This document shows positions 3,162-41,363 of a stretch of DNA of 64,000 nucleotides, piece after piece. The DNA comes from Bacillus safensis FO-36b (GTDB lineage: Bacteria; Bacillota; Bacilli; Bacillales; Bacillaceae). Under the pieces are notes generated by a model. That model was given only the letters and a program-made list of their open reading frames with translations. It had not been told where the DNA came from and made no database searches. The position numbers and the translations under genes are program-made. Each line of letters begins with the position of its first letter. Position 1 is the first letter of the stretch. The stretch lies in the NCBI RefSeq assembly GCF_000691165.1, contig NZ_ASJD01000002.1, positions 186,001-250,000 of the forward strand, given 5' to 3'.

Positions 3162-3190
3162 AAAAAAGCCAGGGATATCCCCCGGCTTTT
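3162..3190 (-). terminator. Terminator of the his operon
   Basis: On the minus strand AAAAGCC-GGGG / CCCT-GGCTTTTTT forms a GC-rich stem around ATAT with a T tract. It begins at the hisI stop codon and closes the eight-gene histidine operon. Confidence 0.88.
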
Positions 3191-3612
3191 CATTCACCTT
3201 GATGACGTTTTTTTAATACCTTTAATACATCATCAAGCGGCAATTGCTGTTCACGTAATAATACAAGAAGATGATAGAGGAGGTCAGCAGTTTCCCATTT
3301 CAATTCTTCTTGATCCCGGTTTTTCGCTGCAATGATCACCTCAGACGCCTCTTCCCCTACCTTTTTCAGGATTTTATCGACCCCTTTTTCAAATAGATAG
3401 GTTGTATAAGCCCCTTCTGGCATTTCCGCCTGACGCTTTGCAATGACCTGTTCAAGTTCATTTAATATCGCAAAACGATCCTGCTCTTCGCTTTGGCGCT
3501 TCACGCCTTCTTCTGAAAAACAGCTATAGCTGCCAGTATGGCAGGCTGGGCCGCTTGGCGCGACAAGGACAAGCAGAGCGTCCTTGTCACAGTCATATCG
3601 AATAGAAATCAC
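3190..3612 (-). CDS. HisI C-terminal part plus complete HisE domain (possible reinitiation product, 140 aa)
   Basis: This is the distal frame of the broken hisI. If translation restarts at GTG 3612, which overlaps the TGA of the first fragment in a GTGA arrangement, the product equals residues 70-209 of intact HisIE. It holds [15 protein letters not shown] and the whole pyrophosphohydrolase helical domain ([20 protein letters not shown]). No Shine-Dalgarno sequence precedes the GTG, so restart would depend on termination coupling and may be weak. Translation of this part is inferred only. Confidence 0.5.
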
Positions 3613-3722
3613 TTGCTGGGTATGTCCAGAGGTGGCGCCGGCGCGACAAGGACAAGCAGAGCGTCCTTGTCACAGTCATATCGAATAGAAATCACTTGCT
3701 GGGTATGTCCAGAGGTGGCGCC
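3557..3722. repeat. Perfect 83-bp direct tandem duplication inside hisI
   Basis: Bases 3557-3639 and 3640-3722 are identical over all 83 positions. Each unit starts GGCGCGACAAGG and ends GGTGGCGCC, so GGCGC occurs at both ends and the junction reads GGCGCCGGCGCG. The unit encodes about residues 61-88 of HisI. No similar duplication was noticed elsewhere in the window. Confidence 0.97.
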
Positions 3723-3902
3723 TTTGTGCCAAAGCTCGTTTCTCGACCGGCTATAAAACCATGTTTCACCTGTCTCCAGCGTTTTTTCATAGGATTCTTG
3801 ATTCATATACGCAAGCGTCAATACTTCCTTACTTTGAGCATCCTGTACAATCGCAGGAATCAGGCCTGCCTCATTAAAGGTTAATTCATTTGCCTGTTTC
3901 AT
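3609..3902 (-). CDS. HisI N-terminal fragment (97 aa)
   Basis: Residues 1-88 are normal PR-AMP cyclohydrolase, including [16 protein letters not shown] and the metal-binding YDCDKD (Cys77). Nine out-of-frame residues (APPLDIPSK) follow before TGA. It lacks the CHTGSYSC segment carrying the other two zinc cysteines (Cys93 and Cys100 in the intact protein; spacings 16 and 7 match those of characterised cyclohydrolases). On its own it should not be active. Its stop overlaps a GTG of the next frame as GTGA. Confidence 0.7.
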
Positions 3903-23413: not shown

Positions 23414-23779
23414 CTCTACAATTCCTTTTTGTATCAACAGATGGAAAATGGATAAAATGACAGCCATCCAAATGGCCGTTCCGAATCCATCAATGTTAAA
23501 GCTATCTCCCATAAAGCTCGATGTCATCATGAGTGTAATCGCATTGATGACAAATAAGAACAATCCTAGTGAAAGAACGGTCACTGGAAGCGTTAAAATG
23601 ATCAAAAACGGCTTCACTAAAATATTGAGCAAAGACAAAATGATACTTGCCACAATGGCTGCGCCAAAACCTTCAATATACACGCTCCCGAGCCCAGGCA
23701 GAATGCCCGAATCAAAATATCCAGCAATGACGATTAAAAGTAATGCATTTACTAAAATACTGACGATCCATCTAAGCAT
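23393..23779 (-). CDS. yvlD: Phage-holin-family-4-type membrane protein YvlD
   Basis: 128 aa with four predicted transmembrane helices (about residues 4-22, 33-52, 57-80 and 100-118), the pattern of the YvlD/Mmp family. Despite the family name nothing links it to phage here. Its ATG directly follows the yvlC stop. Last gene of the envelope-stress operon. The molecular role is unknown. Confidence 0.88.
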   Translation of the reverse strand: MLRWIVSILVNALLLIVIAGYFDSGILPGLGSVYIEGFGAAIVASIILSLLNILVKPFLIILTLPVTVLSLGLFLFVINAITLMMTSSFMGDSFNIDGFGTAIWMAVILSIFHLLIQKGIVEPLAKKS

Positions 23780-23974
23780 TTATTTAGTGCCTTCTTCCGG
23801 AACAACAAAATACCAGATGAAGTAGATCAGGAAGATCGGCATAAATGCTGTCAAAAATCCGATGATGACGGTTAAAATGCGAAGCAGGGATGCATCCACA
23901 CTTAAATATTCCGCAAGTCCACCAACAACACCCGCTATTTTTTTATCTGTTGCTGAACGATAAAGCTTCTTCAT
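23780..23974 (-). CDS. yvlC: PspC-domain membrane protein YvlC
   Basis: 64 aa. The whole protein is a PspC domain: [20 protein letters not shown] followed by one or two hydrophobic helices ending in [10 protein letters not shown]. PspC proteins take part in membrane-stress (phage shock) signalling. Located between yvlB and yvlD in the same order as in B. subtilis, where the operon is SigW-dependent. Confidence 0.92.
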
Positions 23975-41082: not shown

Positions 41083-41363
41083 CATATAAAAAGGCCAGTC
41101 ATCTCCTTGAAGAGACGACTGACCTTGCAACCGCGTTACCACTCTAATTGATTCAGCCATAGCTGAATCCAACTTAAAACCCGTTAACGGAGGTCACACG
41201 TAAAGACTTACTATTCATTCAGTCTTACCGCTCTTTGAGCGAGTTCAATGATTCGTTTTACTGCGTTGCACCAACCCGCAGCTCTCTTAAAAAAACGGAT
41301 GTTCATCTACTATTCTCAAGTCAAAGCGTTTATAGTCAATTTGTATATTCATCAAAGATTTTA
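41083..41363 (-). ncRNA. T-box riboswitch leader of the permease (probably leucine)
   Basis: Minus-strand leader of about 280 nt. The T-box core AGAGTGGTAACGCGG lies at 41131-41145. Before it, stem III GATTCAGC-N4-GCTGAATC lies at 41150-41171. After it, a terminator hairpin GGTCAGTCGTCTC / GGAGATGACTGGCC with TTTTT lies at 41088-41124. The Stem I distal part AGAGAGCTGCGGGTTGGTG is near 41270-41290. The specifier-loop sequence GAA-CTC-G at 41240-41246 suggests codon CUC (Leu) at 41241-41243. The element itself is clear; the specifier reading is by eye. Confidence 0.9.

Follow-up and report, generated by a model that had tools for sequence, protein, structure and literature searches.

A perfect 83-bp tandem duplication interrupts hisI in the genome assembly of Bacillus safensis FO-36b

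In the genome assembly of Bacillus safensis FO-36b, the hisI (hisIE) gene of the his operon is interrupted by two directly adjacent copies of an 83-bp segment, which are 100% identical in a direct sequence comparison and in the TRF output. The length of the unit is not a multiple of three, and the frame of hisI is broken. We consider it probable that this is a recent spontaneous tandem duplication, confined to one strain or lineage, which frameshifts hisI and belongs to an ordinary class of mutation. All positions refer to the window, the whole stretch of 64,000 nucleotides that was analysed. The repeat has the highest score of the five TRF rows of the window and is a near-unique perfect tandem repeat in 450 kb, which rules out a chance match. 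It was noticed in a first-pass annotation, and both its coordinates and its perfect identity hold.

The interrupted hisI locus and its reading frames

The interruption leaves two reading frames with a short overlap (Table 1). In agreement with the frame break after residue 88 that had been proposed earlier, ORF1 follows HisIE up to this residue and then ends in TGA after nine residues that do not belong to HisIE. The accompanying proposal that a single copy of the unit would give a HisIE of 209 residues, judged by alignment alone, agrees with the nearest intact relatives, in which the protein has 209 aa.

Table 1. Features at the hisI locus, in window positions.
Feature	Position	Strand	Remarks
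hisI (hisIE) locus	3190..3902	-	interrupted; last gene of the his operon
ORF1	3609..3902	-	97 aa; HisIE residues 1-88 plus nine other residues; PRA-CH without CHTGxxSC
ORF2	3190..3612	-	140 aa, GTG start; HisIE residues 70-209; end of PRA-CH and complete PRA-PH (HisE)
Copy A of the 83-bp duplication	3640..3722	-	first in gene direction
Copy B of the 83-bp duplication	3557..3639	-	second in gene direction
9-bp stem-loop	3562..3588	.	in copy B, present in copy A too
GTGA, ORF1 stop / ORF2 start	3609..3612	-	4-nt overlap; very weak Shine-Dalgarno pairing upstream
hisF stop / hisI start	3899..3902	-	4-nt overlap

The Pfam model of PRA-CH is covered by ORF1 from position 2 to 61 of 74 and by ORF2 from 43 to 73, and PRA-PH is complete in ORF2 (PF01503, 1-86 of 86). 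The DCDKD motif is found in both fragments, CHTGSYSC is present in ORF2 and absent from ORF1, and the N-terminal, SRSR-bearing part is absent from ORF2, as seen in the alignment; hence, no uninterrupted PRA-CH with both DCDxD and CHxGxxSC is encoded at this locus. ORF1 nevertheless clears the NCBI cut-off for PRA-CH with 127.2 versus 126 bits, a value that describes the score and not the activity. In a profile search of the genome PF01502 matched just two pieces, both of them here, so that this profile detected no hisI (hisIE) besides the split gene.

The remaining genes of the pathway appear to be intact, as the first-pass annotation had suggested. The operon is arranged on the minus strand in the order hisZ-G-D-B-H-A-F-I, and hisF, A, H, B, D, G and Z show full or nearly full coverage of their NCBIfam models. 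A hisC and two genes of the hisJ type lie elsewhere in the genome; they exceed the family cut-off and have no stop within the match. Four-nucleotide overlaps like that between hisF and hisI also occur at the hisG/hisD, hisH/hisA and hisA/hisF junctions. The GTGA overlap between ORF1 and ORF2 is a chance product of the duplication; the Shine-Dalgarno pairing at the GTG of ORF2 amounts to -3.0 kcal/mol, versus -8.1 to -13.4 kcal/mol for hisG to hisI and -3.5 kcal/mol for hisZ. At the gathering threshold, Rfam matches the window only once, with a T-box leader at 41108-41333 on the minus strand, which does not adjoin the his operon.

Comparison with related genomes

The duplication was compared with a genus set of 44 genomes, one per species and including the window's own. 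A 25-mer spanning the junction, with up to 3 mismatches allowed, was found in one of the 44, the window's own genome. One uninterrupted PRA-CH is present in 42 of the 43 other genomes and none in the remaining one, while two pieces occur solely in the genome of the window. No stop was found inside PRA-CH in any of the 42 other genomes that have the domain. The genome without any PRA-CH match (4.2 Mb, one contig; G035) may reflect a natural loss of this step.

The aligned loci give the same picture. From 11 relatives taken, 10 were aligned and all 10 are single-copy, and by BLAST all 19 loci (8 named loci and the 11 relatives, L093 included) gave two matches that overlap in the relative, which corresponds to a single copy. 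The best 80 of 510 named loci are all uninterrupted, 77 by a HisIE motif pattern and the three missed by the pattern on inspection; the closest among these 80 belong to the Bacillus pumilus/safensis group, such as B. safensis S-11 (L004) with 92-93% nucleotide identity around hisI. A comparison with the hisI of close relatives had been proposed with the original observation, and the aligned ones are single-copy and uninterrupted. In the protein collection, the ORF1 product forms a cluster of one sequence from one contig among the best 120 of 8000 scored candidates, and the best match of ORF2, among the matches listed, is a 209-aa cluster that comprises 266 sequences.

The best hisI match in the genus set, G043, shares 95-96% identity with the window over its first 59 kb, with gaps between the pieces, and 89-91% over the last pieces. 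Of its 64 ORFs of at least 100 aa, 55 matched the window, 52 of them in one piece over more than 95% of their length; the nine unmatched ORFs lie outside the tally of frame breaks. The three without a one-piece match are hisI, an ORF that runs into the window edge and an ORF on the strand opposite two genes. Hence, hisI is the only broken gene among the 55 matched ORFs, and the sole other frame break, at 23448-23872, falls in the ORF antisense to two minus-strand genes. General frameshift noise, which is absent among the 55 matched ORFs, was rejected as a source of the interruption.

A further short HisI is found in the protein collection. As far as residue 88, this 97-aa protein (P0002, on a contig of 99582 bases) does not differ from the window; from there to residue 96 it follows the intact relatives up to CHTG, and it then ends after an R. 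It may represent a different truncation in a near relative or an effect of the contig edge.

Assembly, age and origin of the duplication

The first-pass annotation had also raised an assembly or culture artefact as a possibility. In an artefact of this kind the natural genome would be single-copy, and the duplication would stem from the assembler, the library preparation or the cultured clone. Overlaps that a De Bruijn assembler fails to merge can appear as false tandem copies, the genome (3.73 Mb, 100% complete by estimate) is a draft of 37 contigs, and an artefact could be expected to take just this form, a perfect duplication private to one genome and lying in a housekeeping gene; moreover, the hairpin described below could disturb sequencing. 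However, the ends of the contigs, of which 54 of 74 were usable (20 ends of C28-C37, apparently N, were omitted), overlap by 31 nt (nine pairs) or 30 nt (one pair), but never by 83, and an unmerged k-mer overlap was thus rejected as a simple source of the unit. The site lies 189 kb inside the 681-kb contig 2, and the 450 kb of this contig examined for repeats, about 12% of the genome, contain no N and, apart from one 12-mer array, no other perfect tandem repeat with a period of 20-600 bp, so that a systematic duplication in the assembly was rejected as well. The junction sequence is also absent from all 43 other genomes. Taken together, the contig ends, the repeat content and the collinearity with the nearest relative favour a real, isolated event. 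A simple assembly artefact is disfavoured, and overall we judge an artefact to be unlikely.

The 12-mer array is located at G000:C2:274202-274280 and consists of about six and a half perfect copies of a 12-bp unit (CTTTTGAGTCAG). As a baseline, 492 kb of his loci from the relatives hold four perfect repeats with a period of 20-500 bp, three of period 52 and one of period 21. The period-52 arrays lie near the his loci of three Bacillaceae (L038:3822-3944, L060:3775-3909 and L068:504-635), and their units are three seemingly unrelated sequences.

For the favoured reading of a true duplication, the divergence of the unit gives an indication of its age. Copies A and B do not differ at any position, while a count by eye gives 6 differences in 83 positions between the window's unit and its counterpart in the nearest relative. 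It is thus probable that the duplication arose after the divergence from this relative, unless conversion keeps the copies alike. The earlier description as a recent, private and gene-breaking event agrees with the identity of the copies, with the uninterrupted domain in 42 of the 43 other genomes and with the lack of a second hisI.

The borders of the unit cannot be slid by even one base to either side, and a GCGCC direct repeat nearby is out of register. Simple slippage between direct repeats could not yield the 83-bp unit under these circumstances and was rejected. The first five and the last five bases of the unit are complementary and enclose the 9-bp stem-loop, so that the whole 83-nt unit closes as a hairpin. 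Folded as DNA, it reaches -14.1 kcal/mol (z -2.97), with 2 of 200 shuffled sequences folding as well; among background 83-mers the fraction is 0.8% of 3980, and 1.1% of 274 with matched G+C content. For at least five complementary terminal bases the frequencies are 0.13% among 83-mers of the window and 21 of 27693 among hisI stretches of 60-110 bases. The unit thus combines a terminal inverted repeat with a better-than-background fold, in a comparison that was made post hoc and for one event.

Hairpin-assisted replication slippage would account for these borders. During replication, the strand carrying the 83-bp segment would fold into a hairpin with its base exactly at the borders of the duplication; formed in the nascent strand, this hairpin would return the 3' end to the start of the unit, and the polymerase would copy the segment again. 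Such a route requires no direct repeat, and the coincidence of the unit borders with a terminal inverted repeat is in line with it, although here it is a single event seen in sequence alone. We consider this the most likely origin, with the reservation that it was deduced post hoc from one case. The 5-bp terminal complement is kept in two of 10 relatives that carry no duplication, in one of which (L087) the segment folds even more strongly (-16.3 kcal/mol); hence, such a hairpin may make a duplication more likely without making it inevitable.

Consequences for histidine synthesis and reversibility

ORF1 would give a truncated PRA-CH that lacks two of the three zinc cysteines, and it is therefore likely that PR-AMP cyclohydrolase activity is lost and that the strain requires histidine. 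In the structure of the plant HisIE, the metal ligands of PRA-CH are conserved Asp, Cys and His residues from both chains of a swapped dimer, with the metal sites formed across it by Asp125, Asp127, Asp129*, Cys126*, Cys142, Cys149 and His143 (PMC8102479). The auxotrophy predicted in the first-pass annotation is likewise backed, as a prediction, by the identical copies, the 42 of 43 intact relatives and the missing second hisI. Reinitiation at GTGA may yield small amounts of ORF2, with its complete HisE domain; as there is almost no Shine-Dalgarno pairing at the start of ORF2, HisE would hinge on this weak reinitiation.

Against a complete loss of HisI function, ORF2 could keep HisE activity and DCDKD is common to both fragments. 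An alternative reading is a working split gene: ORF1 and ORF2 would be co-translated through the GTGA coupling and would associate, by way of the metal-binding segment that they share and the swapped dimer, to form a PRA-CH of weak activity, while ORF2 would also provide HisE. The 4-nt overlap resembles the hisG/hisD, hisH/hisA, hisA/hisF and hisF/hisI junctions, CHTGSYSC is retained on ORF2, and the plant study describes an active site that draws on both chains and HisI and HisE domains that function when expressed apart (PMC8102479). However, the pairing ahead of the GTG is close to nil, each fragment is incomplete (the N-terminal region with SRSR is missing from ORF2, CHTGxxSC from ORF1), a comparable split is absent from all 43 other genus genomes, and the identical copies give no sign of maintenance; a working split gene appears improbable. 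A still bolder version, a one-step conversion of a fused gene into a pair of coupled, overlapping fragments whose mutual complementation across the swapped dimer sustains histidine synthesis, is more doubtful again; if true, the fragments would be a snapshot of a fused gene splitting without loss of function. The known natural HisI/HisE splits of other bacteria lie between the domains. ORF2 resembles a stand-alone HisE in holding a complete PRA-PH, whereas PRA-CH is broken here in the middle of the domain, with one segment in both pieces. The proposal that gain and loss of a repeat copy act as an evolved ON/OFF switch fares worst. Spontaneous duplications inside pneumococcal capsule genes, including cap8E and tts, are reported to give phase variation (Waite et al. 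2001, 2003, as cited in PMC4022640), but neither the repeat nor a variable copy number is seen across species: the junction is missing from all 43 other genomes, 42 of which have one uninterrupted copy, all aligned relatives are single-copy, the 5-bp terminal complement is kept in just two of 10 relatives tested, and among the protein matches listed the split product clusters with no other sequence. The strain itself was likewise seen in one state only. We regard such a switch as very improbable.

Returning to a frameshifting duplication of the ordinary kind, perfect tandem duplications can collapse and revert. For the two-copy allele, spontaneous collapse should accordingly be possible, as an incidental feature. 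The pneumococcal capsule genes make such reversibility plausible by analogy: in both cases a tandem duplication inside an ORF inactivates the gene in a manner that is in principle reversible, and here the duplication breaks the frame and close relatives carry the intact single-copy allele. Unlike the capsule genes, hisI is a biosynthetic gene of a Bacillus, with no known selection for switching. For the insertions of up to 9 bp in the pneumococcal study, reversion is expected at a frequency of at most about 1e-5 (PMC4022640).

A literature search returned no paper on a tandem duplication in hisI with auxotrophy in Bacillus, and a wider search returned no such allele, judging by the titles and abstract openings of the matches listed. 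The event is of an ordinary mutation class with a somewhat unusual, hairpin-defined border, and it opens no long-standing question. If real, it would be a clear instance of a biosynthetic gene inactivated by a tandem duplication with exact borders and an associated hairpin, and natural histidine auxotrophy with the capacity to revert would be expected of the strain. Genome-based metabolic models may wrongly call it prototrophic, since Pfam sees PRA-CH in both fragments and ORF1 alone passes the NCBI cut-off for phosphoribosyl-AMP cyclohydrolase.
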